Shown in pieces: positions 1 through 34,132 of a DNA stretch of 64,000 nt (position 1 is its first letter; every line of letters begins with the position of its first letter). The position numbers and the translations under genes were made by a program. The notes beneath the pieces were generated by a model. The model was not told the DNA's origin and did no database searches. It was given only the letters and a program-made list of their open reading frames with translations. Where the stretch lies: positions 1 to 64,000 of the forward strand of contig JAUHYR010000001.1 of assembly GCA_030426475.1 (NCBI GenBank), read 5' to 3'. The DNA comes from Bacteroidia bacterium. Lineage in GTDB: Bacteria > Bacteroidota > Bacteroidia > Flavobacteriales_E > Vicingaceae.

Positions 1-103
1 GATAGGTCAGATAACCACCTCCTGACAGCACTACAAGTGAACCAAGAGAAAGCCACAGCTTTTGTGTGGGCGTAAGCGATGATATGAAAGAGTTCTCCTT
101 CAC
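1..103 (-). CDS. 5' end of a membrane-anchored protein, cut by the window edge
   Basis: Reading leftward from a GTG codon at 103, an open frame of 34 codons runs off the window. It begins with a short polar stretch (MKENSFISSLTPTQK) followed by a hydrophobic segment (LWLSLGSLVVLSGGGYLTY) that looks like an N-terminal membrane anchor. It lies 3 nt after the stop of the upstream 60 aa gene, in the same direction, so it is probably the next gene of the same operon. Function cannot be judged from the fragment. Confidence 0.5.
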   Translation of the reverse strand, partial: MKENSFISSLTPTQKLWLSLGSLVVLSGGGYLTY

Positions 104-106
104 TTT

Positions 107-289
107 TTAAAATCCAAGGGCAGATTTAGCAAGTGCGGTTTGCACCGGATCATTTTTAATGATGTCGGCTAGTTTGGTAAGTTCTTTCTCGTTAAGGTTC
201 GAACCCACCGTGGTGAGCGCCTGTACTTTTTTTATCGCCTCTTTTTGGTCTTGGGCGCTTATCGTGATTTTAAAACAAAAGGTTTTCAT
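107..289 (-). CDS. Small 60 aa protein of unknown function
   Basis: A 60-residue soluble protein. The first 12 residues look like a beta strand (KTFCFKITISA) and the rest like two or three amphipathic helices rich in Lys, Leu and Ala. There is no signal peptide or membrane segment. It lies 10 nt after the 266 aa gene, in the same operon-like run. The compact, charged, helical make-up would suit a small DNA-binding or scaffold-type protein of a mobile element, but no specific motif supports this. I do not recognise a named family. Confidence 0.55.
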   Translation of the reverse strand: MKTFCFKITISAQDQKEAIKKVQALTTVGSNLNEKELTKLADIIKNDPVQTALAKSALGF

Positions 290-299
290 TGATTTGGTT

Positions 300-1100
300 T
301 TATAATAGTTCTGTAATGGTGTTTATTTTTTCAGGGTGAGCCGTGAGATGCTCGTTAATTTTGATGAGCCTTTCAATTTCTGCATCAGAGAGTTTTTCTT
401 TTAGCTTGTCATAGACTGAGCTTTGTTCAGATTCTTCTTCAATGGTTTCATAGGAAACTTCACTTGCTGAGCTGCTATCGGCTTTGGTGGTATCTTCTTC
501 ATCCTTTTCAAAGAGTCCTGTCAGCGAGCCAAGTAGGGGGATTTGTTTTGCAGCTTTGGGATTGTTTTGACAGAACTTGGAAAAAGCACCCAGCCCTTTA
601 AAGAGTCCCTGTTGCCAGTTGTCTTTACTTTCTCCGGATTTGTTTTCCAGTTCCTTTTCTAAAAGTTCAATGTATTCTTCGGCATCTTTTAGTCTTTCTT
701 TGACCGTATTAAAATCTTTCTTTAGCTGTTCTGTATCCCAGCGCTCTCTTTCGATTTTTAAGCGTTCATTGAGCCGAGACTCTAGTTCCAATCCATCGAG
801 CGTTTTTTTCTTTGGATGGTTTTCAGGAAAATAAAGAATGCTTTTGGTGTGTCTTCCTGAAGTAGGACTGGTCGAGTAAAGCTTAAAGGTAATCTCATAG
901 GTACTGTCTGTGATAAACTCATCCAACAAGTCAAGATAATCCAGCTTATTTGTCTTTGGGATTACCTTCAGCCCATCAATAAATACCTGATAGTAAATAG
1001 GCGCTCCGTTCTCTGAATGACCTTGAATTACTTTTATGATATAGTTAAGTCTGTCCTCTGTATATTCTATTCTTTCGTCCATAACTTGGTTAAGATTCAA
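300..1100 (-). CDS. Coiled-coil protein of unknown function, 266 aa
   Basis: The N-terminal about 100 residues look like a mixed alpha/beta domain. Residues about 105-160 form a strongly charged predicted coiled coil rich in Glu, Lys and Arg. A short Gly/Phe/Pro-containing linker follows (about 165-200), then a Ser/Glu-rich acidic stretch and a C-terminal helical segment. No signal peptide or clear membrane helix. The start overlaps the end of the upstream 103 aa gene by 11 nt, which suggests translational coupling. The layout of folded head, coiled coil and acidic linker would suit a structural or scaffolding protein of a particle, but that is inference from shape only. Confidence 0.6.
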   Translation of the reverse strand: MNLNQVMDERIEYTEDRLNYIIKVIQGHSENGAPIYYQVFIDGLKVIPKTNKLDYLDLLDEFITDSTYEITFKLYSTSPTSGRHTKSILYFPENHPKKKTLDGLELESRLNERLKIERERWDTEQLKKDFNTVKERLKDAEEYIELLEKELENKSGESKDNWQQGLFKGLGAFSKFCQNNPKAAKQIPLLGSLTGLFEKDEEDTTKADSSSASEVSYETIEEESEQSSVYDKLKEKLSDAEIERLIKINEHLTAHPEKINTITELL

Positions 1101-1401
1101 TGATGATTTGTATCCATTTTATTTTTACCCTGAACCGATTTAGGTTTTGACAAATAATCTCTCCCTGATGCTCATGGGTCTGCTCGTTGATTACTTCACT
1201 ATCCTTGTCATAAGTACCAAGAGAAGAGGTGATAATTACCCCATCGGGTTCAGATATCAAAAGCCATATCTCACCAAAGGAGGGAATGGTAAGGCTTGAT
1301 TCTTTCTCTATCACCAGTTCTCTAAGGCGGTAGTGATAACTGGTAAAACCAAGTTCACTCATTCTCTTTGGGATATAGCTGCTTGCAAATGCTTCTGTCA
1401 T
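1090..1401 (-). CDS. Small beta-rich protein, 103 aa
   Basis: A 103-residue protein with alternating hydrophobic strands (IWLLIS, GVIITSS, FRVKIKWIQIIIE) and acidic loops, suggesting a small beta sandwich. No signal peptide or membrane helix. It sits between the 183 aa and 266 aa genes and overlaps the latter by 11 nt. It is the third small beta-rich protein in a row after the candidate capsid gene, so it may be a minor structural protein of the same particle. The family is not recognised. Confidence 0.55.
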   Translation of the reverse strand: MTEAFASSYIPKRMSELGFTSYHYRLRELVIEKESSLTIPSFGEIWLLISEPDGVIITSSLGTYDKDSEVINEQTHEHQGEIICQNLNRFRVKIKWIQIIIES

Positions 1402-1413
1402 GGTCTTTTTTAA

Positions 1414-1965
1414 TTACTCAATTTCAAAATAGAGATATAGGGTATAGGAAAGAGGAAGCAGACTTTCAGTAGTAACAAGGTCTTTGTATTTTCCAAAAAT
1501 CACCTTGGGAGAGGTTCTGCATCCGTTCTTTTCAAACTCGTGTCGAGATAGTCTACTGACCAGCTTATCGGGATAATGAAAAGCGATTGTGTCGTCTAAA
1601 TCAAAGCTGTCGGAGTTTTCATAGGTAACATCAGAAAAGTAAAACTCGTTTTCTTTTTTCAGACTTTGTAGCGATAGTCTTCCAAGTAGTTTAGTTCTTT
1701 TGGGTAGTTTTACTACTGTCTCTATCTGTCCGACAGGCTGGGGATTATAGAGTCCTCCACCAACCCCAATTCCTCCTCCGTCTAGTCCACCCACTTGCCC
1801 CGGAGCGACCACTTCTTCTTCCTCTTCGTAAATCACTCCTCTGTGAAGCTTTACCCCCACTTCAATGGCTGTGATTTTTGAAAAAGCAGATGGAAATCTC
1901 ACTTGGAACTTTTTCTCTTCGCCCTTTTTTGAAATCGGTATTTTATGGATCACTATCTTTTTCAT
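1414..1965 (-). CDS. Beta-rich protein with glycine-rich insertion, 183 aa
   Basis: The N-terminal 45 residues look like beta strands, then comes an acidic stretch (EEEEEVV) and a Gly-rich loop at about residues 55-75 (GGLDGGGIGVGGGLYNP). The C-terminal about 110 residues are again strand-like and end in a hydrophobic strand (YTLYLYFEIE). The start overlaps the stop of the 127 aa gene by one base. A beta fold with a long glycine loop is common in virion surface proteins, but nothing here proves it. The family is not recognised. Confidence 0.55.
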   Translation of the reverse strand: MKKIVIHKIPISKKGEEKKFQVRFPSAFSKITAIEVGVKLHRGVIYEEEEEVVAPGQVGGLDGGGIGVGGGLYNPQPVGQIETVVKLPKRTKLLGRLSLQSLKKENEFYFSDVTYENSDSFDLDDTIAFHYPDKLVSRLSRHEFEKNGCRTSPKVIFGKYKDLVTTESLLPLSYTLYLYFEIE

Positions 1966-2348
1966 TACTGTCCATCATCCATTTGACATTCCAGATAAAT
2001 GCTCACTCGGTAGCTTTCAAAAGGCGCACGCTCATCCTCTACATCGGTAAAGTCTACTTCTACCAGTCCGTTCCCAACGTTAGTCACCGTGATGGGATAA
2101 TACCTGTCACTTGGCTTGACGTTCAGTCCTGACATCAGTAGCCTACTCTCATAACCTTCGGGAACGATTTCAGAAGAATTGATTTCAATGCTCTGTGTTC
2201 CCCTGTAATAAAGTAAGTCGTCTTTGTCTGAGGTCAACAGTATTCCATCTACTTGTGTGATGGTAGACTCCAGTTCAAAGCTAGGCTGTACTCTTTCTCC
2301 TGCCTGAGCGATAGTAAAGTCAAATCGTTTTTTTATTGGTTTTATCAT
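1965..2348 (-). CDS. Small beta-sandwich-like protein, 127 aa
   Basis: A 127-residue protein made of alternating beta strands (for example SIEINSSEIV, ITVTNVGNGLVEVDF, YRVSIYLECQM) with acidic turns and no membrane segment. It starts just downstream of the intrinsic terminator that follows the 242 aa candidate capsid gene and overlaps the next gene by one base. The strand pattern would fit a jelly-roll or Ig-like fold of a minor structural protein. That is inference; I do not recognise the family. Confidence 0.55.
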   Translation of the reverse strand: MIKPIKKRFDFTIAQAGERVQPSFELESTITQVDGILLTSDKDDLLYYRGTQSIEINSSEIVPEGYESRLLMSGLNVKPSDRYYPITVTNVGNGLVEVDFTDVEDERAPFESYRVSIYLECQMDDGQ

Positions 2349-2364
2349 CTTTTTTGTTTGGTTT

Positions 2365-2400
2365 AAAACCAGCTACCCCATTAAAGGGCAGCTGGTCTTT
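2365..2400 (-). terminator. Intrinsic terminator after the candidate capsid gene
   Basis: Read leftward, a GC-rich stem (CCAGCTGCCC pairing with GGGGTAGCTGG, one mismatch) with a short A/T loop is followed by TTTT. It lies 23 nt after the stop of the 242 aa gene and before the start of the 127 aa gene, inside an otherwise tightly packed leftward block. It would lower transcription of the downstream genes relative to the 242 aa gene. Confidence 0.7.
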
Positions 2401-2422
2401 TAAGGTTTGTTTTAAAAAAGAA

Positions 2423-3151
2423 TTAAGGGGTGGTAATTGTACCGTGAAGTCCTGCCCACACATAGCTATTGGCAGCGATGCCTGTGGTTGTTCCAAGTTC
2501 AAGGGTCAGTTCAATAAGAACATCATCCTGAATTAGTCTTGGGTTAGCTAGCTTGTAATAGCCCACCGGAACCATCGACATTCCTTTTGTTTTAAAGATG
2601 TTGTTAGAGGTCTCGGGAAGGATTTGTTTTTTGTTACTTTTCAGTGACACCTCTCCGTTGGCAAGGGATGGAAATGCCTCAATGCTGTCATACTCTGTTG
2701 CCATCATAGCATCCTTGGTATTGTCTGCTGCTGTTCCTGCCAAAAGGATAATACCACTTACTAGAAGCGACTGGTTTTTAGGTAGCTTGGCATTGGAAAG
2801 GTTTCGAACGCCTATCTCTTTGTCATCTTGGGTTTCAAAAAGCTTAATAGTTTTTGAAGTGATGGGTTTGATGGAATAGATGATGGTGTCGGCAAGGCGC
2901 AGTTCTCCTTTTTTGATGGCTTCCTTCACGTGCTTTGGAAGTTCACGGAAGTGTTTTTCCATCTCTGCTCTTGAGCCTCTGCTTGGCATTGGTGCAGCGG
3001 TCAGTCGCTGGATGGCTTTTCTTCTTTTAAGTGGGTTCATCTTGCCAAGTGTTCCCATAAGACCTGCCATCATTTCGGGATCGTCATAGTCTATCCCGAT
3101 AAGGTCTCCTTGGTTGTTGAATTCATCAATGGCTTCTAATTGTCCTAACAT
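2423..3151 (-). CDS. Candidate capsid-like (jelly-roll-type) protein, 242 aa, unproven
   Basis: The N-terminal about 85 residues are charged and helical. From residue about 90 the protein turns into long hydrophobic strands with conserved-looking turns: LPKNQSLLVSGIILLAGTA, an ANGEVSLKSNKKQILP segment, LANPRLIQDDVLIELTLELG and a final VWAGLHGTITTP. This spacing of strands, with an Asn-Pro turn before the penultimate strand, reminds me of single or double jelly-roll capsid proteins of tailless bacterial viruses. At about 160 residues only one jelly-roll would fit. It is the only gene in the block followed directly by an intrinsic terminator. Assignment is by eye only. Confidence 0.4.
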   Translation of the reverse strand: MLGQLEAIDEFNNQGDLIGIDYDDPEMMAGLMGTLGKMNPLKRRKAIQRLTAAPMPSRGSRAEMEKHFRELPKHVKEAIKKGELRLADTIIYSIKPITSKTIKLFETQDDKEIGVRNLSNAKLPKNQSLLVSGIILLAGTAADNTKDAMMATEYDSIEAFPSLANGEVSLKSNKKQILPETSNNIFKTKGMSMVPVGYYKLANPRLIQDDVLIELTLELGTTTGIAANSYVWAGLHGTITTP

Positions 3152-3200
3152 TGTGTTTTTGTTTTTAGGGTTTATGATTTAAATTGATTGTTTACTTTTT

Positions 3201-3833
3201 TTAGATAAGTGGGTCTACTATTTCTTCTGAGGGGCTATCCGAAGTGATACCATCGGTTGTCCCTGACACCGAGTCGTTTTCCGATGCGCTGGCAAAGGAG
3301 GTGGCACTTTCTTCAATTTCTTTTTCCAGCTGGTCAAGTAGCCTTTCATGCTCTTTTGAATCCCCAAGAGCGCCCATCTCTTCTTCTGTCTTTTGAATAG
3401 ACTCTCCGCTTTTTTGAGAGGCGCTGTTCTCTTTTTTCGTGAGGATAGGTAGCTTATCTAAAAAGAGTTTTTGTTTCAGGCTCTCATTAAAATTGCTCAC
3501 TCTTTCTTTTGCCTCTGCAATTGTGCCAAGGCTTTTTCCAGAGAGGTTTTCTTTTTTTGGTGTAGGAAGACCCGAGGATGCCATCATGCCAAAGCCGATG
3601 GTGGAGGTGATTTTACTTTCCATGTAGTGACCGATTCCCGTCACAATAAGTCCGGTGACAAGGGATGCTCTTCCAAGAGCCGCTCCGATTATTCCTCCGC
3701 CAATCACTCCAATGACAAGGTCTTTTCCGGTTTCAATGGCGCTGTTTTGAACGCTCTTTTTTGTTTTAAGAGGAGTGGTGATTCCACTTAAAATGTTCTT
3801 TTTGGTTTTTTCTTTTTGATATGGATTACTCAT
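3201..3833 (-). CDS. Glycine-rich membrane protein, 210 aa
   Basis: Residues about 36-80 form one or two small-residue-rich membrane helices (VIGVIGGGIIGAALGRASL, then VTGLIVTGIGHYM) followed by a short motif TIGFGMMASSG. The C-terminal half is polar, Lys- and Glu-rich, and ends in a Ser/Asp/Glu-rich tail. There is no cleavable signal peptide. It lies 13 nt downstream of the transglutaminase-like gene and upstream of the candidate capsid gene. Gly/Ala-rich helices of this sort are common in membrane proteins of lipid-containing virions, but cellular roles are possible. The family is not recognised by name. Confidence 0.55.
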   Translation of the reverse strand: MSNPYQKEKTKKNILSGITTPLKTKKSVQNSAIETGKDLVIGVIGGGIIGAALGRASLVTGLIVTGIGHYMESKITSTIGFGMMASSGLPTPKKENLSGKSLGTIAEAKERVSNFNESLKQKLFLDKLPILTKKENSASQKSGESIQKTEEEMGALGDSKEHERLLDQLEKEIEESATSFASASENDSVSGTTDGITSDSPSEEIVDPLI

Positions 3834-3846
3834 AAAATATCTTGGT

Positions 3847-5472
3847 TTAAAGGGTTTTGCTTGCCGTTTTTGAGGTTTTCTTTTTTGCAGGTTTTTGTGC
3901 GGTTTTCTTTTTGGCTGCTCCTTTCTTTTTAGGCTGACCGCTTAGGTCGTTAGTTGGGGCAGCAGGCTTCTTTTTCTTAGGCTTTAAAAGCTGATAGCCA
4001 AGAATAGAAAGACCAAGTCCACCCACTCCAAAAAGAGTCGGCTTGAGCCACTTTTTGTTCTTTTTCCAAAAACTCTCTTCCGGATCATCAGAAGAACTGG
4101 CATCAGAACTGGTTCGTTGATTTGCAGAACCACCATCAGGTAAGCTACTGTTATCAGTAGAAGTGGTCACTACATCAGTTGGATAATCCTCAGTGTATGT
4201 CTCAAAAGCATCTGAGCTGGTTTCTGTGGGAAGGGTAATACTCTCATCCACAAGTTCAGTCTCTTGGCTGGCTGCTGCTTCTTGCCCTGCTCTTTTAGGA
4301 AAAAGTTCTCCGATGTTTTTTAGTAGTGCCGAAATGGATGCTATCACTCCGGTTGCTGCTGTAATTGCAGCAGCCGTAGCCGGCTCACCGAGTTCTCCAA
4401 GCCCGTTCATATCATCGATGTTCTCACTTCGGTAGATTTCTTCTCCCAGTAGTTCAGAAAGTGGCATTGAAGTAGAAAAATCAAAAGCACCGAGTCCGGC
4501 TACTTCTCTATTTGCATTTCCTTTACCCGATAGAATAGCCTTTTTAAGATTCTCAGGTTTTCCACCTGCGCCATGAAAGATTTTCTCAAGACGCTGGCGA
4601 ACACCTACCAGCTTTTGATAGCGCCCCATGTCCATTCCTTTTTTCTGGGCAACTTCAGGGGTTACATATGCCCACTTTAGTCTCTCGGCAACTTTAAAAA
4701 GATTGACCTTCATCGCTGCAAGCACTCCGTTTCGAAGTAGTACCGTGGAAGGGTTCACTCGGTTAATCACATGTAGTCCCTTACCAACTATCTTTTTAAA
4801 TATTCCTTTCTTTTTGGTGGAGGATGAGCTGCTACTAGATGCTGCTGCTTTTTTCTTTTTTCTAAAATTAAAGATGCCTTCAAAGTTTTCTTCTTCTAAA
4901 AACTCATCAAAGTCATCTTCGTCTATTCCTTGTAAGTATTCTAATTCCATGGGTGTATCCATTTTTTGGGTAAAGGGTTGTTCACTGTTAAAATTATCCA
5001 TCACACAGTCTAGGGTGATGTAGGAGCTATCATATGGCACGATGGGGTAGATATGCTGAAAGTAGTCCTTGTTATACTTTGCTATCCGTAGCTTATGTGG
5101 GATGTTTAGATTGGTTAGAATGCTAGAGATAAATACCGTGTAGCAATCACAATCCACTCCCGAAAAGCGGTCGTGCCATGTTCTGATAGGACTTCTGATT
5201 TGTTCTTTTCCCTTGGCATCTTTTTTATAGTTGATGTGTCTGTAGACAAACTCCCAAATGTTTTCAAGAGTTTTTATGGTGGTATCTGCTTTTAGCTTTT
5301 GTGCGATTGCTTTGGTTTGATGGGTAGTTTCTTTTACTACTCTTTGGATAAGTGAAAGGGTATCTTCCAGTCTTGCATCTCTTTTGATTAGCTCATTTCT
5401 ACCACTTGCTTTTTCAAATAGATGGTCAAACGCTCTTGTAGAATTGATATGTCTAACTGACTTTGCAATCAT
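3847..5472 (-). CDS. Transglutaminase-like cysteine-protease-fold protein with lysine-rich tail
   Basis: Residues about 60-165 match a transglutaminase-like core: a Cys in GVDCDCYT (about residue 106), a His in FQHIYP (about 140) and an Asp in ITLDCVMD (about 153), the usual order of the catalytic triad. A Lys/Ser-rich stretch (about 208-225) separates it from a helical middle domain. An Ala-rich segment lies near 365, and a hydrophobic helix LFGVGGLGLSILGYQLL near 480 is a likely membrane anchor. The last about 45 residues are almost all Lys, Ala, Pro, Thr and Ser, like a histone-H1-type nucleic-acid-binding tail. It overlaps the LEA2-like gene by 4 nt. Domain call is by motif; the biological role is unknown. 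Confidence 0.6.
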   Translation of the reverse strand: MIAKSVRHINSTRAFDHLFEKASGRNELIKRDARLEDTLSLIQRVVKETTHQTKAIAQKLKADTTIKTLENIWEFVYRHINYKKDAKGKEQIRSPIRTWHDRFSGVDCDCYTVFISSILTNLNIPHKLRIAKYNKDYFQHIYPIVPYDSSYITLDCVMDNFNSEQPFTQKMDTPMELEYLQGIDEDDFDEFLEEENFEGIFNFRKKKKAAASSSSSSSTKKKGIFKKIVGKGLHVINRVNPSTVLLRNGVLAAMKVNLFKVAERLKWAYVTPEVAQKKGMDMGRYQKLVGVRQRLEKIFHGAGGKPENLKKAILSGKGNANREVAGLGAFDFSTSMPLSELLGEEIYRSENIDDMNGLGELGEPATAAAITAATGVIASISALLKNIGELFPKRAGQEAAASQETELVDESITLPTETSSDAFETYTEDYPTDVVTTSTDNSSLPDGGSANQRTSSDASSSDDPEESFWKKNKKWLKPTLFGVGGLGLSILGYQLLKPKKKKPAAPTNDLSGQPKKKGAAKKKTAQKPAKKKTSKTASKTL

Positions 5473-5948
5473 GAGAGTTTGATGTTTTCGGTGGTGGAAA
5501 ATGGGATGCTGGCTTTTCCAAGTAGAAGCTGGGTGGTAGTTTTTACAACCAGCGTAAGCTGAGACTTGGCTTTTAACTTTTGGATGAACTCTGCTCCAAA
5601 GCTTAAAAGTGAGGTCATAGGGCTTTGAATAAAAATCGGCTCAAGGGTAACCTCACCATTGGCAGGGACGGTGATGGTATTGTTTTTCGCCTCTGATGAG
5701 CCGATTAGATTTTCGGTATAATAAATTCTGACAAAAGGAAAACGAAGAGTAAGACTGGCAGAACTTGGGTTTTGGAGCTTGGTATCGACTCTGAGTGTAA
5801 CACCACTTAGCGTAACCTTGTGAAGGGAAATTCTAGAGAGAACTTCAATTTCAACAGAGGCTTTTTTAAGCCGAAAGAGCCATGCTCCAAGACCAACTAG
5901 TCCTGTGGTAATGGTTAACCCGATGAGTATGTTTTTCAGTTTAGCCAT
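5469..5948 (-). CDS. Membrane-anchored LEA2/WHy-like beta-sandwich protein, 159 aa
   Basis: Residues about 5-27 are a hydrophobic anchor (ILIGLTITTGLVGLGAWLF). The remainder resembles the LEA type 2 (WHy) beta-sandwich: a series of strands with the phrase LRVDTKLQNPSSASLTLRFP, the usual Asn-Pro/Ser turn of that family, then PANGEVTLEPIF. Such domains bind hydrophobic ligands or surfaces in known families. It overlaps the transglutaminase-like gene by 4 nt and abuts the 63 aa gene, so the three are probably translated together. Role here is unknown. Confidence 0.55.
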   Translation of the reverse strand: MAKLKNILIGLTITTGLVGLGAWLFRLKKASVEIEVLSRISLHKVTLSGVTLRVDTKLQNPSSASLTLRFPFVRIYYTENLIGSSEAKNNTITVPANGEVTLEPIFIQSPMTSLLSFGAEFIQKLKAKSQLTLVVKTTTQLLLGKASIPFSTTENIKLS

Positions 5949-6140
5949 TTATTTTTTTCTTCTTTTTAGTTTTTCAATTACCATCTCACCTGAGATTTTT
6001 ACCCCTACCCAAATCACCCCTCCGATGAGTGCTTTTATCGCATACTCCACAACAGAGGAGTAGTCAATGGAGGCGAGCATGATGGAAGCGGTGAGATAAA
6101 TACTCGAGCCGACTTCGGTGAGTTGTGGTTTTAATTGCAT
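5949..6140 (-). CDS. Small membrane protein, 63 aa (holin-like size and topology)
   Basis: A 63-residue protein with one hydrophobic stretch at about residues 13-25 (IYLTASIMLASID) and a stronger one at about 35-50 (AIKALIGGVIWVGVKI), ending in a basic tail KLKRRKK. It is the first gene of the structural-looking run and is followed directly by the LEA2-like gene. Two weak helices and a basic C-terminus are shared by many holins, but also by other small phage or host membrane proteins. No family is recognised. Confidence 0.5.
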   Translation of the reverse strand: MQLKPQLTEVGSSIYLTASIMLASIDYSSVVEYAIKALIGGVIWVGVKISGEMVIEKLKRRKK

Positions 6141-6257: not shown

Positions 6258-6464
6258 TTAGTCTAGCGAAATAGTCATCGGTGTTCCCAGTTTTTCTAAG
6301 ATGGTTTTTACCTGAGCAATGCTATAATACCTGCCGTTTTTCTTTCCGATTTCTTTTTGAAAGGGTCTAATCCATTTTTTGATGGTGCGGTAATCCACAT
6401 CGTAAAGTCCGGCTAAATCTTTTAAGCTTAAAGGCTTTATCTGAAATTTGTCACTTCCCATCAT
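6258..6464 (-). CDS. Small HTH DNA-binding protein, copy 1, 68 aa
   Basis: A 68-residue protein with a helix-turn-helix: LKDLAGLYDVDYRTIKKW forms the two helices and NGRYYSIAQVKTILEKLG looks like a wing and trailing helix, as in MerR/excisionase-like folds. It is clearly paralogous to the 70 aa protein at 10089-10301 (shared pattern LA..Y..D.RT.KKWI.PF..EIG...GR.Y.I.QVK.I.EKL). It overlaps the 143 aa gene by 4 nt and precedes the structural-looking genes, so a role in late-gene control or replication is plausible but unproven. Confidence 0.7.
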   Translation of the reverse strand: MMGSDKFQIKPLSLKDLAGLYDVDYRTIKKWIRPFQKEIGKKNGRYYSIAQVKTILEKLGTPMTISLD

Positions 6465-6892
6465 GCCACACCTCCCAGTTCCTTTTGAATTTCATCTAGG
6501 ATGACAAAAAAGATGTGTTCAGTTACACTCACATAAACGGGCTTTGGACTTTCCTTTTTTACTTTCCAATTCTTTGTCCCTGCAAATCCTTTTGGGTTGT
6601 GTTTGTTTAGCCAAATGGTTGGATGAGGAATGTATCGCAATGGATGTCTGTTGACATACTCTTTGGCAAGACGTATTCTCTCACAGTAATTTCTAAAATG
6701 TCGGGAGGATTCCAGTGAGAAGTTTTCAGGTGAAATCATCTGGTAGTATTCTTTGATAAATGCTTTGGAGATTTCAACTTCGCTTTTGGTAAATCTTTGG
6801 TTCTCCCAAAGTGTTTTTTGTGCGTACTCCCAAGTTAGGTTGCTCAGGAAGTCTATTGAAGCGGGATGCACTTTTGTGATTGTTTTTGTCAT
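6461..6892 (-). CDS. Unknown 143 aa protein, possibly replication-associated
   Basis: A soluble, basic, mostly helical protein. The only notable motif is HPTIWLNKHNPKGFAGTKNW at about residues 90-110, a Trp-Leu-Asn plus Gly-Phe-Ala-Gly-Thr pattern that resembles short motifs in phage replication-type proteins; I cannot name a family with confidence. It overlaps the HTH gene by 4 nt, forming a two-gene unit. It is separated from the HEPN pair by about 150 bp of AT-rich DNA, in which I see no gene. Confidence 0.5.
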   Translation of the reverse strand: MTKTITKVHPASIDFLSNLTWEYAQKTLWENQRFTKSEVEISKAFIKEYYQMISPENFSLESSRHFRNYCERIRLAKEYVNRHPLRYIPHPTIWLNKHNPKGFAGTKNWKVKKESPKPVYVSVTEHIFFVILDEIQKELGGVA

Positions 6893-7040: not shown

Positions 7041-8561
7041 CTAGTTTATGTCGGTTTGTGTTTTTTTATGACTTTTAACTTTTTTAGACAATAAGCTTTT
7101 CAAGGTTTTGGTAGTGTTTTTCCCGGTTAGATAGTCGATGTGTTTAAAAATATGTTTCAGGTTTTCCTCAGAGTAAAATCCCCATTTGATGTGGTCTTTT
7201 AAATGTTTGTGAAAATCTATGTTATGTAATAAATCGTTTTTGATTTCTTCAAGGTCTTTTTCTACTTTATACATATCCGGAATATCTCTTATGGGTAGAC
7301 TTAAAAAGTTACATAGTAAATCATAGTGATTACTACTTACTAGCTTTCTTGCGTTAGGTAGCTTTTTTAAAATATCCAATTTTTCATTAACAGGTAGTTG
7401 AATATCACGAACCATTTTTTTACTGAAAAAGAATAAGTCTAATATGAACAGAAAGGGCAAATAAATATTTTCCTGATCCTCAATTTTTCCGCCATGCATT
7501 AATCTATTACGGTAATACCTAAAAACAAATCCGTAGTAGTCAAAGTCATGGATCATCATCGAATGATGCTTTCGAAGGATATTCATTTTCTCTTTTAATC
7601 CCTTGTTATGGATTTCCAGTTCGGGCGTCCCATATTCTATACACATATCATGTATGATCCCTTCAATAATTGGTGGGATTAAATGAACTGAACTAAGGTA
7701 ATCTTCTTTTTTATAATCTTCTAGCACCTTATAAATCATTTCTTTTCTTGAAAAAAGAATATGGTTAAACTCAACCAAAGAATCTATGGTATCTATTACT
7801 TTTTCTGTGATGATATAATCTTTTAAAAAGTAAGCCAATTCTTCAAATTTGCCTTCTTGAAATAATTTGAGAGTTGTTGATTTATCTGCTTGATCTTTTC
7901 TTGAATGAAGAAACTTATTGAATAAGACGTCCGGATATCTAGGCTCTAAAAATTCTACGGTATAGAAGTAGTCGTATGGTATTCCTTCTTTAAATCGAAA
8001 AAAGTCAACCCTACAAAGACCAATTACATGTCTTTTTACTTGATTGTGATTGCTTATAAACTCCATCATTTCTTTTCTTGTTTCTTTGTTTTCCTCAAGT
8101 AAATAATGTGAAAAGTCGAGCTTGAAGTTGATATCATAAAAAGAATTGGAAGAAGTTTTTTTATTTTTTAGTTCTTTTATTTCCTTTTCGAGTTGAGAAA
8201 TATTATCGTTAATAGCTAGTAGCTGTCTTGAGCAATGTAGATAAAGCTGGATAAAAACTTCATTAGGAGATTTTTTCATCCTAAAATGTCTGAAGTAAAT
8301 ATCATCTATTAGTTTTGGAAGTGTCTTGGGAATCTGATTTTCACTCTCTTTTTTAACACCATAAATAGTAAATCGTAACTCTTGCTTTAAGATTGAATCC
8401 TTTGCAACATAAGCACTTTTAATTTTTTCGAAGTCAGATTCGTGGTAGTTTAATCCTAAATGCTTTACAAAAAACCTTCTGACAAGATCTTCTTTATTAG
8501 ATACTAAAATATCATCTGATTTTAGTATTCCCATTACATCTTCATGCGCAGATAGAATCAT
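7041..8561 (-). CDS. HEPN-like protein A of a tandem paralogous pair, 506 aa
   Basis: A long mostly helical protein. A coiled-coil-like segment lies at about residues 110-135. At about residues 285-375 is a conserved block (HLIPPIIEGIIHDMCIEYG, then YYRNRLMHGG) whose RNRLMH is an Rx4H motif followed by Gly-Gly, the hallmark of HEPN-type ribonuclease domains such as Apea-like HEPN. Its neighbour at 8558-10084 has the same block and a similar N-terminal region, so the two arose by duplication. The genes overlap by 4 nt. HEPN proteins often act as RNases in abortive infection or toxin systems; activity here is inference. Confidence 0.55.
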   Translation of the reverse strand: MILSAHEDVMGILKSDDILVSNKEDLVRRFFVKHLGLNYHESDFEKIKSAYVAKDSILKQELRFTIYGVKKESENQIPKTLPKLIDDIYFRHFRMKKSPNEVFIQLYLHCSRQLLAINDNISQLEKEIKELKNKKTSSNSFYDINFKLDFSHYLLEENKETRKEMMEFISNHNQVKRHVIGLCRVDFFRFKEGIPYDYFYTVEFLEPRYPDVLFNKFLHSRKDQADKSTTLKLFQEGKFEELAYFLKDYIITEKVIDTIDSLVEFNHILFSRKEMIYKVLEDYKKEDYLSSVHLIPPIIEGIIHDMCIEYGTPELEIHNKGLKEKMNILRKHHSMMIHDFDYYGFVFRYYRNRLMHGGKIEDQENIYLPFLFILDLFFFSKKMVRDIQLPVNEKLDILKKLPNARKLVSSNHYDLLCNFLSLPIRDIPDMYKVEKDLEEIKNDLLHNIDFHKHLKDHIKWGFYSEENLKHIFKHIDYLTGKNTTKTLKSLLSKKVKSHKKTQTDIN

Positions 8562-10084
8562 TTTGTTTTGAGATATTTATTATTATACATTTTAAAATCT
8601 ATTCCCTTTACCTTGTTTTTAGCTAAAATTTTAATAAGTTCCACTCTATCTATTAAAGAGGTGATTTCTTCATCGTCCAAAATATTTTTGATGAAGCTTA
8701 TATAACTTTTGGTATGAAGCATAGAATAAGCAGCATTAACTTCACTGTCTTTATTGTAAATTTCTGGTATGGCGACCTTATCCTCCAATACAAAAAATAT
8801 CACAGCATACATTCTTCTAAAATCATTCGGATCATTATAATCATTAATCTTATTTAAATAGTATAGTCTAATATTTAAAGGTGTACGAATTTTATGAATA
8901 ATAACATTAATAAACCGATGTAACATCAACATTAATAACACAGGGATATACTGGTACTCACCATCACTAAGATTTCCGCCATGTGCCATTTGGTTTCTAT
9001 ATATAGTCATGATGAACATTAAAAATTCATAGTCAAAAATATCCAATGAATTTTTTTCCGATAACATTTTCAGTTTTGCCCTTAATCCAGCAGTCTGGTT
9101 TTTTAAACTTTTTTGTTTTATATCTAATTCAATACACAATTCATATATTAAACCTTCAATTATTGCAGGTACTAAATGAGCCGCAGATAACTCATAACCG
9201 TCCTTGTAACTATTGATACAATCGAAAATTAATTTACTCTTTTTATTTGTAAGATGATGTTTTGAAATGCCAGCCACAATTTCTTTGTATAGCTTTTCTT
9301 TTGTAATTACATTAAGTAATTCTTCCCTAAGTCCGTTTGGATTAAGTGATAAAAAATACTCCTCCCTAATTGGGTAGGGGAAGTACCAAATAAAGTTGAA
9401 TATTAATTCTTTCCAATCTCTTTTTTGAAGTAAATATTCATTTTCATGGAAAGTGTACCAAGGATTTGAAAGACTTTCATAAGACTGTGGTGAAATGCAT
9501 TTACCACGTACAATAGTTGAGATTTTCTCCTGATTTAAAAGAAATAATCCTATCTCTTCTAAAGTTAAATTGTTCTGCTCTAATAGGTGTTTTATTAGTT
9601 CAATATCTATCTTTATTTGGTGAATTTCACTATCGGAATTATCGCCAGCGTTATTATTTTCTTCTATACTTTTCTGTTCTTTGGTATTAAGAGTTTTAAG
9701 TGCAGTGTTTAGATTTTCTATATTACTTTTTATTTGCTCTGCTTGGTGGTTACAATAGTTATAAATATTGGAATAGATTGTTTTGGGTTCGTGTTGAAGA
9801 TGGAGTACTTTTAACGAGATAAACTTCACAAACTGCTTGAAATAACGTGGTACTTCGGATTTGCTCTTAAACGGTTTATTTTCAGCTTTTAAATTCCCGC
9901 TATTAACATCATGGTTGATCTTAGTTATAAAGGATTGGCGTGTTTTTTCTAAGTTAGTATATGGATTTTTTATTCTTAGATATTTTTCCAAAAAAGACTC
10001 TGTTAGTTCTTCGTAAGAAGAAACGATAAAATTTGTTTGGTAGAGAAGTTCTCTTCTTATCAGACTTAATTTTTCTTTTGGCAT
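8558..10084 (-). CDS. HEPN-like protein B of a tandem paralogous pair, 508 aa
   Basis: Paralogue of the downstream 506 aa protein. The shared block at about residues 300-390 includes HLVPAIIEGLIYELCIEL and IYRNQMAHGG, with RNQMAH as the Rx4H motif. An N-terminal region and a coiled coil at about 120-150 also align by eye. Its DNA is visibly richer in A/T than the flanking polymerase genes, which suggests separate origin. It lies 4 nt downstream of the 70 aa HTH gene, which may regulate it, and overlaps its paralogue by 4 nt. A two-HEPN heterodimeric ribonuclease is one reading; a membrane or sensor role is not supported by any hydrophobic segment. Confidence 0.55.
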   Translation of the reverse strand: MPKEKLSLIRRELLYQTNFIVSSYEELTESFLEKYLRIKNPYTNLEKTRQSFITKINHDVNSGNLKAENKPFKSKSEVPRYFKQFVKFISLKVLHLQHEPKTIYSNIYNYCNHQAEQIKSNIENLNTALKTLNTKEQKSIEENNNAGDNSDSEIHQIKIDIELIKHLLEQNNLTLEEIGLFLLNQEKISTIVRGKCISPQSYESLSNPWYTFHENEYLLQKRDWKELIFNFIWYFPYPIREEYFLSLNPNGLREELLNVITKEKLYKEIVAGISKHHLTNKKSKLIFDCINSYKDGYELSAAHLVPAIIEGLIYELCIELDIKQKSLKNQTAGLRAKLKMLSEKNSLDIFDYEFLMFIMTIYRNQMAHGGNLSDGEYQYIPVLLMLMLHRFINVIIHKIRTPLNIRLYYLNKINDYNDPNDFRRMYAVIFFVLEDKVAIPEIYNKDSEVNAAYSMLHTKSYISFIKNILDDEEITSLIDRVELIKILAKNKVKGIDFKMYNNKYLKTK

Positions 10085-10332: not shown

Positions 10333-11379
10333 TTAATTATTTGCAAAACGTTCTATAAATTCATCTTCAAAAAGGTGCATCATGCTTGCCATTTCCTTTA
10401 CACTTAGCCCTGTGGCACTTCTGTATTTGGTAACAAGACTTCTAACAAGAAGTGGCTTTTCAATTGGCACATCCAGTTCCTGTGGTTCTCTTTTTCTAAT
10501 TTTTAAAGTGTTAAACTGAGAGATTAAATACCTTTTTTGATTGTATGTTATGAGTTCTAAATCACTTGCTCTGTATAGAAGTGCCTGCATTGAAACTTTC
10601 CATTTTTTCTTTAAAAGAGCAAGTAGGTTTAATCCTACATCTCCTTTCATATCTTTTTTAATTTCAGCTTCGGGCATTAATAGTTCAGCAGCAAAAATAT
10701 TGGCTCTATGGTCAGCATCTCCATTCATGCTTTCTGTAAAGTGGTGCATCAAAATATGCCCTAGTTCATAGGCTAGACTGAAGCGCTGCCTATCGCCTAA
10801 GAGCCGTTTATTTAAAATGATAAGTGGATGTCCGGTTTTGGTAATAAGTGTTCGAGAGTCCACTCTGTCAGTGTTAAAGTCAAATCTTACGACAAGAATA
10901 TTTCTTTTTTCAAGCTGTTCTGTGAGATTATCAATGGGAATATTACCCAAGTTCCAATCCTTTCTAACCTTTTTTGCAATTTCTGAAGGTGAGGTTTCTG
11001 AAGTAACCTTAAGTTTCGGAAAATTAGGTGCTGGTAGCTTTACTTTTTCAAGTAGTGTCTCTAGTTGCAAACGATAAAGATTACTGGTTGCTTCTATTGG
11101 AAAGAGAACTTTGTGGGCAACTTTTAACCGCTTTCTAAAGTTTATCATGGAAGGTAGAAAAGCATCTCCCTTTTGGTAAAAGAAACTTACCGGATAGTTG
11201 AGCCTCATCGAAAGTCGTTTTACATCGTCATCAGTAAAAGATTGGTTCTGCTGTTCTACAAGAGATATTTTTGCCTCTGAGAGATTCATCTCACTTGCAA
11301 GGTCACGCTGAGTTAAGCCTCTTGATTCTCTTGCAAGTGTTATCATTTCTGTATTTATCTCTTTTAAAGTGGGTGTCAT
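10333..11379 (-). CDS. XRE-family regulator with ImmA/IrrE metallopeptidase domain
   Basis: Residues about 10-65 form a XRE/Cro HTH (ESRGLTQRDLASEMNLSEAK). Residues about 165-250 are an ImmA/IrrE (COG2856-type) domain with the core AYELGHILMHH and a downstream ANIFAAELLMP. In the family the core is HExxH; here the first zinc-ligand His is Tyr (codon TAT, one change from CAT), so peptidase activity may be lost or altered. XRE-ImmA proteins commonly cleave or control a partner repressor in mobile elements and stress responses. A candidate promoter lies just upstream. The S24 repressor is two genes upstream in the same direction. Confidence 0.75.
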   Translation of the reverse strand: MTPTLKEINTEMITLARESRGLTQRDLASEMNLSEAKISLVEQQNQSFTDDDVKRLSMRLNYPVSFFYQKGDAFLPSMINFRKRLKVAHKVLFPIEATSNLYRLQLETLLEKVKLPAPNFPKLKVTSETSPSEIAKKVRKDWNLGNIPIDNLTEQLEKRNILVVRFDFNTDRVDSRTLITKTGHPLIILNKRLLGDRQRFSLAYELGHILMHHFTESMNGDADHRANIFAAELLMPEAEIKKDMKGDVGLNLLALLKKKWKVSMQALLYRASDLELITYNQKRYLISQFNTLKIRKREPQELDVPIEKPLLVRSLVTKYRSATGLSVKEMASMMHLFEDEFIERFANN

Positions 11380-11486: not shown

Positions 11487-12860
11487 CTATAAGGGAATAA
11501 TTTGATAGTCCTCAAAATGGTTCATATAAAACCTCAGTACTTTATAAATGTCGCTGTTTTCTTTTTGGGAGGTAATAATTGATTTTACTTTTTTAAGAGA
11601 GTTTAATTTTTGATTCTTTTGTACAAAACCGTAGCCTTTATAAATTCCCTTTTCCAAAAGAACGATGCCTCTTTCATTTTCCTCTCTACCTTCAGTTTGA
11701 ATAATAAATGTCTCACTTGAAAGACTTAGAGACTCGATTGCCTTTTGAACTCTTTTATTATAATCCGCCACATCTTCTTTACCACAACAAACACCTTTAC
11801 ATTTTTTAAGCTGATGGGAAAAGCAAGCACCTGTTTTTACTTTTTCTATCTCGCAGAATTTTGGACAGAGTTCAAATTCTTCAATGAGTTTGTCAAGACA
11901 TAATCTTACTTGCCTTTCTGAATAAAACTTAGCAATGGGTTCATTAGCGAGTTTTAATTTTCCAAAGCAAAGTCTTAGAACACCACGCTTGTCGATGTAG
12001 GTAGTAAGAGCAACACTCTCTGAGACTCTTTTTTGAGCTCTGTTAAACAAAGGATAATGCTTTTTAATTTCTGCTGATTCCACTAATAGAGCGATGAGTT
12101 CTCCGCCCGTAAGGGTGTACTCAACTTTAGCTGTTTGTAAAGACATGCGCTGCTCTTTAGAAGACTTGTCTCTAAAATGACTAAGCACTCTTGCTTTGAT
12201 ATCTTTTGCTTTTCCTACATAGATGATTTTTCCTTCCTTGTTTTTAAAATAATACACTCCCGATGTGGTAGGTAGATTTTCAATCTCGCTGGTGTCAACA
12301 AGTGGAGGAAGCGTACCTTGAAAATGCCTTTTATTTAAAAAGTATTGAATGACTTTTTTCTCAGGGTCGTGATGAAGTATTTTTTCAAAGAGTTCTACCG
12401 TTGCCCTTGCATCTCCTCTTGCACGGTGTCTGTTTTGAATTTCTATACCAAGAGAAGAGCAAAGGTTTCCAAGGCTGTAGGAAGAATAACCGGGGAATAC
12501 TTTTCTACTTAATCTAACGGTACATAATTTTGGACGCTGGAATTTTGCACCCAGTTCTTTAAATTCTTTGGAGATTACACCATAATCAAAATTAACACTG
12601 TGTGCCACAAAAACAGCATCCCTTGTTTTACTTTCTATGATGTCTGCAATTTCAGAAAATCTTGGTGCATCACTTACCATTTCATTGGTGATTCCGGTAA
12701 GAGAAGTGATGGCAGTTGGGATAATGTTTTCGGGATTGATAAGAGTTGTAAACTCATCGATAATGGAATGACCGTCATGCAAGAAAATAGAGATTTCCGT
12801 AATCTTATTTTCAATGTGACGAAAACCACTGGTTTCAATATCAATGATGGCATAATTCAT
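11487..12860 (-). CDS. DnaQ-like exonuclease fused to UvrC-like GIY-YIG nuclease
   Basis: Residues 1-165 form a DEDDh exonuclease: YAIIDIETSGF (motif I, D-E), VFVAHSVNFD (motif II) and HRARGDARAT (motif III). From about residue 205 a GIY-YIG nuclease follows (SGVYYFKNKEGKIIYVGKAK), then a Cys cluster (CFSHQLKKCKGVCCG) as in the N-terminal half of UvrC and Cho. The fusion is known in several bacterial groups and is thought to act in repair incision plus strand trimming. It starts within the stop codon of the S24 repressor (one-base overlap), so it is probably SOS-regulated. A separate full UvrC is encoded at 59168. Confidence 0.8.
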   Translation of the reverse strand: MNYAIIDIETSGFRHIENKITEISIFLHDGHSIIDEFTTLINPENIIPTAITSLTGITNEMVSDAPRFSEIADIIESKTRDAVFVAHSVNFDYGVISKEFKELGAKFQRPKLCTVRLSRKVFPGYSSYSLGNLCSSLGIEIQNRHRARGDARATVELFEKILHHDPEKKVIQYFLNKRHFQGTLPPLVDTSEIENLPTTSGVYYFKNKEGKIIYVGKAKDIKARVLSHFRDKSSKEQRMSLQTAKVEYTLTGGELIALLVESAEIKKHYPLFNRAQKRVSESVALTTYIDKRGVLRLCFGKLKLANEPIAKFYSERQVRLCLDKLIEEFELCPKFCEIEKVKTGACFSHQLKKCKGVCCGKEDVADYNKRVQKAIESLSLSSETFIIQTEGREENERGIVLLEKGIYKGYGFVQKNQKLNSLKKVKSIITSQKENSDIYKVLRFYMNHFEDYQIIPL

Positions 12861-13663
12861 TAACTGGTGGCAGGAATTCTGTTTTCAAGTTTTGTCATCT
12901 TCTCTCTTAAATCAGCTAGTTCAATTCCCACACTTCTAAGCAGGTTAAGTATATTTTTAGGATTAAGTTCATCTGCCGAATACTGACCTATACAAAGGTT
13001 TAATTTAAACTGCCATATTTCAAGGATGTCTGAAAAGTGAACATCGTAGGGATGATAGCTTTTATTATCTGAAACAAGGGTCAGGAACTTTTGTTTTACT
13101 CCTGCCGTGTTAACTCTTTTATACACCAACCCATCGTTTTTAGTAAGGATGATATAACAGAAATTGTTCCTCACTTCTTTAATATCGTGAAGATATTCTC
13201 CGATAACATAATCTCCTTCGTTTACCCATGGAGACATCGAGTCTCCTTTTATTCTAAACCCACGATGTTTTCCGGTGGGTAGAAAAGGAAGGTTCATGAT
13301 AGGTAAATTAGAAACGTATTCACTATCGGAGTATCCGTTAAGATATCCGGCAGATGCTTCCTTGGTAACAATCTCAATTTGGTTGTTATCATTCTCATCA
13401 ATAATGATGGGAAAAAGCAATCGGTTGTTTCCAATATCCATATAGGCATCTTCTTTGGAAAGGGTCAGATTGTTTTTGATAAGTACATCAATGGGCAGTT
13501 GAAAGAACTCTGAGAATTTTACCAGCGTCTCTTGGGAAGGTTCTGCTCTTGAATCTTCATAAGAGGAGATTTGGTTTCTAGTGATGTCTAGGTGATCTGC
13601 AAGAGCAGGTTGAGATAGATTTTTTTTAGCTCTCAGATACCTTATGTTTTGGGCAAAATACAT
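12860..13663 (-). CDS. LexA/CI-type repressor: XRE HTH plus S24 self-cleaving domain
   Basis: Residues about 5-60 are a XRE HTH (NLSQPALADHLDITRNQIS). The C-terminal half is an S24 peptidase: the likely self-cleavage bond is Ala-Gly in EASAGYL (about residue 105), the nucleophile Ser is in IKGDSMSPW and the Lys in LVYKRV. RecA-stimulated self-cleavage is known for this family and would link the operon and the divergent polymerases to DNA damage. The gene faces the polymerase pair across an 89-bp gap with inverted repeats, where it would bind. It could be either an SOS regulator of the polymerase cassette or the lysogeny repressor of the whole element. Confidence 0.85.
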   Translation of the reverse strand: MYFAQNIRYLRAKKNLSQPALADHLDITRNQISSYEDSRAEPSQETLVKFSEFFQLPIDVLIKNNLTLSKEDAYMDIGNNRLLFPIIIDENDNNQIEIVTKEASAGYLNGYSDSEYVSNLPIMNLPFLPTGKHRGFRIKGDSMSPWVNEGDYVIGEYLHDIKEVRNNFCYIILTKNDGLVYKRVNTAGVKQKFLTLVSDNKSYHPYDVHFSDILEIWQFKLNLCIGQYSADELNPKNILNLLRSVGIELADLREKMTKLENRIPATS

Positions 13664-13708: not shown

Positions 13709-13752
13709 TTAGCAACTCCAAATTAATCCACCAAATTTTAGGATAAAAAAGA

Positions 13753-14964: not shown

Positions 14965-14975
14965 ACAAAAAAAGG

Positions 14976-32262: not shown

Positions 32263-32487
32263 ATGAACTTGGATAATCCACATACTGTAGCGAAGTTTGA
32301 GAAAACCCCATTCTCCTTTCAGCAAATCATTAATGCTGAAAAGATGACGGTGGAAAAACTAAAAACATTTTCAGGATTTGAAAACATATCAGAACAAGAA
32401 GCACAACACATTATTGAAACACTTAATTGTTTTAGTGACATTATTATAAATCATATTACTAAACCGGAATATCATGCAGACCCTTAG
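32263..32487 (+). CDS. Small protein paired with serine recombinase, 74 aa
   Basis: A 74-residue soluble helical protein (FSFQQIINAEKMTVEKLK, then ENISEQEAQHIIETL). It starts 225 nt upstream of the recombinase stop-side partner and overlaps the recombinase start by 14 nt. Similar small genes often precede large serine recombinases in Bacteroidota, and may regulate expression or direction of recombination. No DNA-binding motif is obvious. Function not known. Confidence 0.6.
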   Translation: MNLDNPHTVAKFEKTPFSFQQIINAEKMTVEKLKTFSGFENISEQEAQHIIETLNCFSDIIINHITKPEYHADP

Positions 32488-34132
32488 TCCTTTTAAAAGT
32501 TTTGCCAAAGCATCTAAAGAACAACACATCAACAAAGATGGAAAAGCGGTAGTCTATACCAGAGTGTCTACCAAAGAACAGGCAGAAAACAATGCAAGTT
32601 TAGAAACACAAAAAAAGTATTGTATTGAATTTGCCAAAAAGAAGAAAATAGAAATCATCGAATTTTTTGGTGGTACTTATGAATCTGCCAAAAGTGATGA
32701 GCGTAAAGAATTTTCTAAAATGCTTTCATTTGTCAAGCGAAAGAAAGACATCTCTTATATCATTGTTTATTCTTATGACCGTTTCTCCCGAACAGGAGCG
32801 AATGGTGCTTATATCAGTGAGCAACTTAAAAAGCAAGGTATTGTCACCTTATCTGCTACTCAAGAGGTAGATGCTATGACGGCAGCTGGTTCTTTTCAGC
32901 AGAACCTGTATTACTTATTCAGTCAGTTTGATAATGAACTTAGAAGAGATAAGTCAGTTTCGGGCATGAGGGAAAAACTCAGAAAGGGATATTGGATAGG
33001 TTCTATTCCATTTGGTTATACCAACCTCAACCCGGGAAAAGGGAAAGAACAGCAGATTGTCATTAATGAACAGGGTAAACTCTTAAAGTATGCTTTCTTA
33101 TGGAAGGCGAATGAGAACATTACGCATATAGAAATAGCAAAGCGACTAGAAAGAAAAGGTTTAAAGGTTAGCTATAAGAAACTGAGTGATTATTTCAGGA
33201 ATCCTTTTTATTGTGGCTTGGTAGTTAGTTCTCATATACCGGGTGAAGTGGTAGAAGGAAAACATGAGGCGCTTATTTCCAAGGAAACCTTTTTAAAGAT
33301 TCATCAGCTATTAAATAAAACAGGTTATGGGGAAAAGAAGAACATGGATGATGAGAACCTTCCTTTAAAACGTTTTATGAAGTCTACGGTTTGTGGAACA
33401 GCTTATACAGGTTATCTTGTCAAAAAGAAGGGGTTATATTATTACAAGAACAATCGTATTAGAAGTAAAGAAAACCGCAACGCAAAAATCATCCATCAGC
33501 AGTTTTTAGACCTTTTGGAAAATTATGCTCTTGTTGATGAAAAGCATCTTACTCCGTTAAAGGAGATGATGTATTATTCTTTTAAAAAGGCTCATGAGGC
33601 ACATATTCAGGAAACAATGGCGCAACAGAACGAATTATTGGGGATATCTACCAAATTAGAGCGCTTGGAGGAGCGTTATGTGTTTGAGGAGATTACTCAG
33701 TCGCAATATGAAAAGTTCAGGCAACGTTTGGAGGCTGAGAAGCTGGAAATTGAAGAAAAACTTCACTCCAGTGGGTTTAATTTATCGAACCTGGAGAAGG
33801 CGTTGGATTTGGGGTTAAATTATGCCAAAAACCTGCCTGAACTGTGGCAAAGCGGCAATCTGGACACTAAGCGTAGTCTTCAAAAGATGGTGTTTCCGGA
33901 GGGTATTTTGTATGATTTTAAAAACAGTGTTTTTCGAACTCCTTATGTGAATTCCATTTTTAGCTGTATTGGGGAGTTGTCTAAGGAAATGGTCAAAAAT
34001 AAAAACGGGACAAGTCAAAATTTTGAGGACTTATCCCGTTTAGTACCAAAGGTGGGAATCGAACCCACACATCCGAAGATACACGATTTTGAGTCGTGCG
34101 CGTCTACCAATTCCGCCACTTTGGCAATTTGA
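32474..34132 (+). CDS. Large serine recombinase reading through the tRNA-Leu region
   Basis: 552 aa. Resolvase catalytic domain with the nucleophile Ser in VVYTRVSTKEQ (about residue 32) and SYDRFSRTG, then a Recombinase domain (IPFGYTNLNPGKG) and the zinc-ribbon position KSTVCGTAYTGY, where most of the usual Cys ligands are missing (only one Cys remains). A coiled-coil region follows (about 395-440). The last about 30 codons run antisense through the tRNA-Leu terminator and most of tRNA-Leu, so that tail (DLSRLVPKVGIEPTHPK) is supplied by the chromosome. It probably integrated this island at the tRNA gene. Confidence 0.75.
   Translation: MQTLSPFKSFAKASKEQHINKDGKAVVYTRVSTKEQAENNASLETQKKYCIEFAKKKKIEIIEFFGGTYESAKSDERKEFSKMLSFVKRKKDISYIIVYSYDRFSRTGANGAYISEQLKKQGIVTLSATQEVDAMTAAGSFQQNLYYLFSQFDNELRRDKSVSGMREKLRKGYWIGSIPFGYTNLNPGKGKEQQIVINEQGKLLKYAFLWKANENITHIEIAKRLERKGLKVSYKKLSDYFRNPFYCGLVVSSHIPGEVVEGKHEALISKETFLKIHQLLNKTGYGEKKNMDDENLPLKRFMKSTVCGTAYTGYLVKKKGLYYYKNNRIRSKENRNAKIIHQQFLDLLENYALVDEKHLTPLKEMMYYSFKKAHEAHIQETMAQQNELLGISTKLERLEERYVFEEITQSQYEKFRQRLEAEKLEIEEKLHSSGFNLSNLEKALDLGLNYAKNLPELWQSGNLDTKRSLQKMVFPEGILYDFKNSVFRTPYVNSIFSCIGELSKEMVKNKNGTSQNFEDLSRLVPKVGIEPTHPKIHDFESCASTNSATLAI
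34006..34038 (-). terminator. tRNA-Leu intrinsic terminator inside the recombinase frame
   Basis: Read leftward after the tRNA: CGGGATAAGTC stem, A/T loop, GACTTGTCCCG stem, then TTTTTATTTTT. It lies just 3' of tRNA-Leu and is antisense to the recombinase codons. Confidence 0.8.
34044..34125 (-). tRNA. tRNA-Leu (anticodon CAA)
   Basis: Class II tRNA of 82 nt. Acceptor stem GCCAAAG with CTTTGGT, D-arm GGCGGAATTGGTAGACGCG, anticodon loop CTCAAAA (anticodon CAA), a variable arm with a TTCG tetraloop and T-arm GTGGGTTCGATTCCCAC. The discriminator is A and the CCA end is not encoded (CTA follows). It is the insertion target of the recombinase next door. Confidence 0.93.

Follow-up and report, generated by a model that had tools for sequence, protein, structure and literature searches.

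The phage SSIP-1 has a tailless icosahedral particle of T=49 geometry, a membrane inside the particle and a circular double-stranded DNA (dsDNA) genome of 43.8 kb (PMC6260650). Its genome was described as hardly resembling anything in GenBank (PMC6356626), a packaging role has been predicted for its ATPase gp40 (PMC4124505), and it is counted among the viruses using two single-jelly-roll proteins (PMC4958249). The window analysed here, the first 64,000 nucleotides of contig C32 of a Bacteroidia bacterium (genome 2.87 Mb, 139 contigs), opens with an operon of virion-type genes. The element to which this operon belongs is, with good probability, a temperate virus that has no tail, contains a membrane, is related to SSIP-1 and is undescribed in the literature searched. 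A literature search for tailless or single-jelly-roll proviruses of Bacteroidota, with subscription papers largely outside its reach, yielded only Microviridae, double-jelly-roll and PhiCjT23-type proviruses and none with this gene set.

Virion-type operon and its conservation

The original prediction had placed ten consecutive leftward genes, overlapping or abutting, at the left end of the window. All ten were present as a tight operon at positions 107-6140, in which neighbouring genes overlap or are spaced by 0-75 bp, and an eleventh gene is cut by the contig end at 1-105 (minus strand). These 105 bases hold the first 34 codons (VKENSFISSLTPTQKLWLSLGSLVVLSGGGYLTY) of a gene for an annexin-like, membrane-anchored protein, the remainder of which is lost in the assembly gap. 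The translation resembles the N-termini of orthologues in L004, L003, L017, G341, G106 and G091, and the L004 orthologue matches Pfam Annexin (8.7e-10).

Read in the direction of transcription, with all genes on the minus strand, the operon starts with a membrane protein of 63 amino acids (aa) with one hydrophobic segment (5949..6140), followed by a 159 aa LEA2-like protein with an N-terminal anchor (hydrophobic segment 7-25; 5469..5948; Pfam LEA_2, 2.5e-6). The third gene encodes a 541 aa transglutaminase-like protein with a Lys-rich basic C-terminus and a conserved DCDC motif (3847..5472; Pfam DUF553, 2.2e-5), the counterpart of SSIP-1 gp34. A 210 aa membrane protein with a Gly-rich hydrophobic segment (3201..3833), a 242 aa candidate major capsid protein (2423..3151) and a 127 aa candidate second capsid or vertex protein (1965..2348) come next. 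The last four genes encode beta-rich proteins of 183 aa (family F07, fast evolving; 1414..1965) and 103 aa (family F08; 1090..1401), a 266 aa coiled-coil protein (family F09; 300..1100) and a 60 aa soluble protein (family F10; 107..289), of which an orthologue lies at the same position in eight other elements. The kinds of protein that had been named for the operon (small membrane, LEA2-like, transglutaminase-like with a Lys-rich tail, Gly-rich membrane and beta-rich) were confirmed. Pfam matches above the cut-off were obtained for only two of the ten operon proteins, those of 159 and 541 aa, and a PHROG search gave no match below E 0.03 for any of the ten.

The collinear operon is conserved in a chromosome of Niastella sp. 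OAS944 (L003), found as a relative of the 541 aa protein in the species-genome collection, in two IMG/VR contigs (L004, L017) and in seven further genomes. The Niastella copy looks intact. Viral-contig relatives of the 242 aa protein were found in L004, L017 and L110. Full copies begin with the ten genes in the order given above and continue with the annexin-like gene, a peptidoglycan-binding gene and then usually genes for an amidase, a protein of 209-231 aa, which in L004 is a glucosaminidase, a spanin-like protein, a methyltransferase and an ATPase; the small genes vary in more divergent copies such as G407. The dN/dS values of the 242 and 127 aa genes were 0.007-0.096, indicating strong purifying selection. 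Since about ten other loci preserve the gene order and these values are low, the operon is not a chance string of open reading frames.

The 242 aa profile matched 37 of 395 genomes sampled in the class, belonging to 25 of 197 genera, with a maximum of five copies in one genome; only 5 of 395 genomes matched in the phylum-wide sample. Presence across the class is patchy. Candidate tyrosine integrases occur in elements L010 and L012, and candidate serine recombinases in G155, G350, G048 and the window. Homologues in fixed cellular operons, which would have spoken for another function, were not what was found; they lie in mobile, patchy, multi-copy elements with integrases. In one copy (L046, 152-886) a stop codon interrupts the 242 aa gene, as in a decaying provirus.

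Predicted structures of two candidate shell proteins

The AlphaFold model of the 242 aa protein, built with 32 homologues, has a helical N-terminus and one eight-strand domain (pLDDT 81.8, pTM 0.72). Among its first Foldseek matches in the PDB were the capsid protein of EhV-201 (2e-5), Sulfolobus polyhedral virus 1 (SPV1; 1.6e-4), the FLiP penton (2.3e-4), PBCV-1, SGIV and SH1, so that the best matches are capsid proteins of tailless icosahedral viruses. The capsid-like strand pattern seen earlier in this protein is thus matched by a jelly-roll-like model. The double jelly roll of the FLiP/PM2 type (tectiviruses, corticoviruses, FLiP) was rejected for this protein, as the model has one eight-strand domain.

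The model of the 127 aa protein also has eight strands (pLDDT 93.8, pTM 0.85). Its Foldseek matches (E >= 2e-3) include birnavirus VP2 and plant virus coats, and also the non-viral sandwiches Ena, BcsB and PliG; they are weaker and less specific than those of the 242 aa model. Strand counts and Foldseek matches point to jelly rolls in both proteins. PDB sequences searched with a profile from the 32-member alignment of the 242 aa protein gave nothing significant, including among the capsids of two-single-jelly-roll viruses. A match in BFVD (I1ZBH9, 211 aa, TM 0.43/0.49) has the length of SSIP-1 gp46 and gp35; it is nameless and was not used as evidence.

Candidate packaging ATPase on a second contig

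The original prediction had found the left end missing and no ATPase in the window. The window does start at a contig end, and an ATPase is present in the same assembly: the ATPase of a viral contig is 64% identical to one encoded at C15:36393-36998. This gene lies in the last 5 kb of C15, followed in the direction of the contig end by genes for a D12 methyltransferase, a spanin-like protein, a small membrane protein, a 231 aa protein and an amidase. C15 ends in the C-terminus of a peptidoglycan-binding protein, the window opens with the N-terminus of the annexin-like protein, and in relatives the annexin-like gene directly precedes the peptidoglycan-binding gene. Because the broken gene ends match the order in relatives, and because the 242 aa gene and the ATPase gene each occur once in this genome, C15 and C32 are very probably neighbours, separated by some 1.6 kb of missing sequence. 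A search of the same genome for the strawberry-notch helicase/methyltransferase and for annexin gave no match above the cut-off; its methyltransferase is of the D12 type and stands in place of the strawberry-notch protein.

Relation to SSIP-1

By tblastn the ATPase of the element found SSIP-1 gp40 at 1e-5, besides other phages. Among 38,880 PHROGs the best family for the element ATPases was phrog_6891, with E values of 8e-19 for the ATPase on C15, 2e-19 for G047 and 3e-22 for Niastella; the next-best PHROG over the same region was at least 14 orders weaker. SSIP-1 gp40, a virion protein by annotation, gives a full-length match to phrog_6891 (2.6e-79), and a profile of nine element ATPases matched gp40 with an E value of 1.5e-11. 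A second link comes from the transglutaminase-like protein. A profile of eleven copies aligned with the SSIP-1 virion protein gp34 (hhalign probability 97, E 3e-11), both match PF04473, and the DCDC motif is kept in all 11 copies.

When every family of the block was compared with the SSIP-1 proteins by hhalign, only the transglutaminase and the ATPase gave clear matches. The 242 aa profile had no significant match to single SSIP-1 capsid sequences. A 14-member gp45/gp46 profile was built from gp46 relatives in the phylum, and against it the 242 aa profile scored 27.1 over 136 collinear columns; the best of 200 column shuffles reached 22.8 and the reversed profile 12.0. At the level of profiles a link between this protein and gp45/gp46 is therefore no more than suggestive. 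The gp44, gp47 and gp48 families gave nothing significant against the block families. In some elements a methyltransferase-type protein of 1569-1729 aa is encoded; its match to gp43, the large methyltransferase virion protein of SSIP-1, is confined to the methyltransferase domain (E 7e-5).

Capsid genes like SSIP-1 gp46 were themselves found in 16 of 395 phylum genomes, 14 of these in one family (L115-L126; G724, G521, G618, G475 and others). The order gp44-gp46-gp47-gp48 was seen in the 12 gp46-like loci looked at. On this showing SSIP-1, hitherto an orphan, seems to have proviruses of its own.

Regulation, integration and extent

Immediately upstream of the operon and on the same strand are a gene for a 68 aa protein, a possible DNA-binding regulator (6258..6464), with similar small open reading frames at the same place in L003, L004, G341 and G155, and a conserved gene for a 143 aa protein (6461..6892), with homologues at the same place in G106, G091, G155, G048, G047, G341 and G046. 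A candidate lysogeny regulator that joins an XRE helix-turn-helix to an IrrE-like M78 peptidase (Pfam) lies at 10333..11379 (minus strand). Genes 45-51% identical to it are found near the same end of the element in G091, G047, G341 and G155.

A large serine recombinase (Pfam Resolvase/Recombinase) is encoded at 32474..34132 (plus strand), its 3' end lying across a tRNA-Leu(CAA) gene (34043..34125, minus strand), the candidate attachment site. Recombinases 39-46% identical to it occur in three elements: next to the ATPase gene in G155 and G350, and at an end of the element in G048. It is probably the integrase of this or a co-resident element. With the recombinase at the tRNA-Leu gene, the element could span about 41 kb, from 35.5 kb on C15 to 34.1 kb in the window, with its right end at this tRNA gene. 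In an empty-site comparison, the gene order upstream of prs in relatives was not common to C15. In two relatives that lack the 242 aa gene (L087, L088), related serine recombinases also end at the tRNA-Leu gene beside prs, and this site looks like an integration hot spot.

Interpretation

If the element is a virus of this kind, the XRE/IrrE repressor-protease would hold lysogeny until the recombinase excises the genome and the operon is expressed. The 242 aa jelly-roll protein, probably with that of 127 aa, would build the shell, as in two-single-jelly-roll viruses (PMC4958249), while the anchored proteins (63, 159 and 210 aa, annexin-like and peptidoglycan-binding) would sit in an inner membrane. 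DNA packaging would be driven or assisted by the gp40-type ATPase. Maturation, entry or lysis may fall to the transglutaminase-like enzyme, together with the hydrolases and the peptidoglycan-binding protein. Lysis would involve the amidase, the glucosaminidase in some copies and the spanin-like protein, which is so called only for its anchor and its apparent coiled coil. With PHROGs, element proteins were assigned to endolysin families of the amidase and glucosaminidase types. The tailless membrane-virion function proposed earlier has thus gained support from the gene set, the models and the SSIP-1 matches, and the particle itself is still what we infer from them.

Several points weigh against this reading. 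The particle and its membrane are deduced from gene content, and so is the join of C15 to the window, in place of a sequence overlap. Foldseek gave the 242 aa model low TM-scores of 0.2-0.5, and its fold was therefore assigned from the strand pattern and the kind of matches. AAA and transglutaminase domains are widespread, and the matches to gp40 and gp34 alone are consequently no proof of kinship; the hhalign probability between the 242 aa and gp45/gp46 profiles was only 7-10%. No replication initiator was recognised. The right boundary at the tRNA gene is tentative, as a search for a direct repeat of the tRNA as an attachment site found none and bases 18-25 kb encode type IX-secreted proteins that look host-like.

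These uncertain ends bear on the alternative that survives best, a domesticated or defective provirus whose virion genes make a non-infectious particle or membrane compartment of use to the host, for instance for gene transfer or delivery. Much of the 11-32 kb region is not found in most other copies, and the stop codon in the capsid gene of L046 is of the same tendency. The purifying selection on the capsid genes, the presence in many copies of an ATPase, recombinases, regulators and lysis genes, the patchy distribution and the several copies per genome fit an active virus better, and we regard this alternative as improbable. Less probable again is that the operon serves the cell envelope or surface, or belongs to an integrative element with a machine for penetrating cell walls, the beta-rich proteins then acting outside the cell in adhesion or as matrix. 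The anchored, peptidoglycan-binding and annexin-like proteins would suit this reading, and the 127 aa model also matches beta-sandwiches of non-viral proteins (BcsB, Ena, PliG); the capsid-type matches of the 242 aa model, the matches to SSIP-1 virion proteins and the lysis genes speak against it, and no conjugation families were found in the element proteins scanned. A divergent tailed prophage or its satellite with misread head proteins can be given hardly any credence: lysis genes and integrases are common in tailed phages, but the element proteins scanned (part of the proteins across copies) gave no convincing PHROG match to a portal, large terminase, HK97 capsid, tape measure or tail, and tblastn of the 242 and 541 aa proteins against 50,697 phage records gave no match.

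Beyond the probable identity of the element as a temperate SSIP-1 relative, the evidence leans slightly towards a large undescribed lineage, of family level or higher, of temperate tailless membrane dsDNA viruses across Bacteroidia. Its members would combine the SSIP-1 packaging ATPase and transglutaminase with a 242/127 aa single-jelly-roll shell and an annexin-like anchored protein that shapes or docks the membrane. If the relation to SSIP-1 holds, the SSIP-1 kind is a common resident of Bacteroidota chromosomes and not a salt-lake oddity. Standard tools miss such elements because their virion proteins match no PHROG or Pfam capsid model; the profiles would serve to find them, and many lysogens would be at hand for inducing tailless membrane virions. 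Single-jelly-roll viruses would also be placed in an important bacterial phylum, and a bacterial annexin-like protein would gain a viral context. At L004:13188-13883 and in its orthologues, an annexin-repeat protein with an N-terminal membrane anchor is encoded within the virus-like operon, and some bacterial annexins may be of viral origin.

Other genes in the window

Positions 7041-10084 encode two adjacent paralogues, each about 507 aa long, that share 25% identity; Pfam gave no match for the first and PADLOC none for either. At 12860-17999 an S24/LexA-like repressor, a DinB-type polymerase and a 1007 aa DnaE-type polymerase are adjacent and resemble an SOS mutagenesis cassette. A similar repressor/polymerase trio is present in G062, about 7-14 kb past the end of the virion operon. 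At 18029-24077 a CHU_C-tailed protein is encoded next to an RCC1-repeat protein of 1663 aa that has a type IX secretion tail; this stretch may be either host DNA or cargo. A GajA/GajB pair at 25407-28078 represents a Gabija anti-phage system (PADLOC, 1.3e-95 and 4.6e-46) and is followed by a type IIG restriction-methyltransferase at 28239-31874, of which a 50% identical counterpart lies upstream of the regulator in element G341. The Gabija pair and the type IIG enzyme are possible defence cargo of the element.

Comparison with known viruses

FLiP, PM2 and Sphaerolipoviridae had been proposed as comparators. The FLiP penton and SH1 did appear among the Foldseek matches, but the closest isolate proved to be SSIP-1 and not FLiP or PM2. 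SPV1 is among the best PDB matches of the 242 aa model; it is an archaeal virus, and no other common gene was detected. With FLiP and PhiCjT23 the element would share a tailless, lipid-containing particle, as far as its genes tell, and hosts in Bacteroidota. PhiCjT23 also has proviruses, and the FLiP penton resembles the 242 aa model. FLiP and PhiCjT23 have single-stranded DNA genomes of 7.6-9 kb, one double-jelly-roll capsid protein and a replication initiator, whereas the element is large and its jelly-roll proteins are of the single type.

Two adjacent genes for predicted single-jelly-roll proteins would suit the two-capsid-protein plan of the vertical single beta-barrel viruses (P23-77, SH1, SNJ1; Sphaerolipoviridae, Simuloviridae and kin). 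There is no sequence match to these viruses, however, and the ATPase of the element is of the SSIP-1 gp40 type; their genomes measure 16-30 kb and their hosts are mostly haloarchaea or Thermus. SSIP-1 itself differs in overall gene order, no annexin-like protein was seen in it, and no sequence match to its other virion proteins was found. The element and SSIP-1 share an ATPase of the gp40 PHROG, a transglutaminase-like protein (virion protein gp34 in SSIP-1), a methyltransferase near the ATPase (in some elements a large one, akin to gp43 over its methyltransferase domain), an integrase, a run of membrane-protein, capsid and beta-protein genes (gp44-gp48 in SSIP-1) and capsid-gene relatives in the same phylum.

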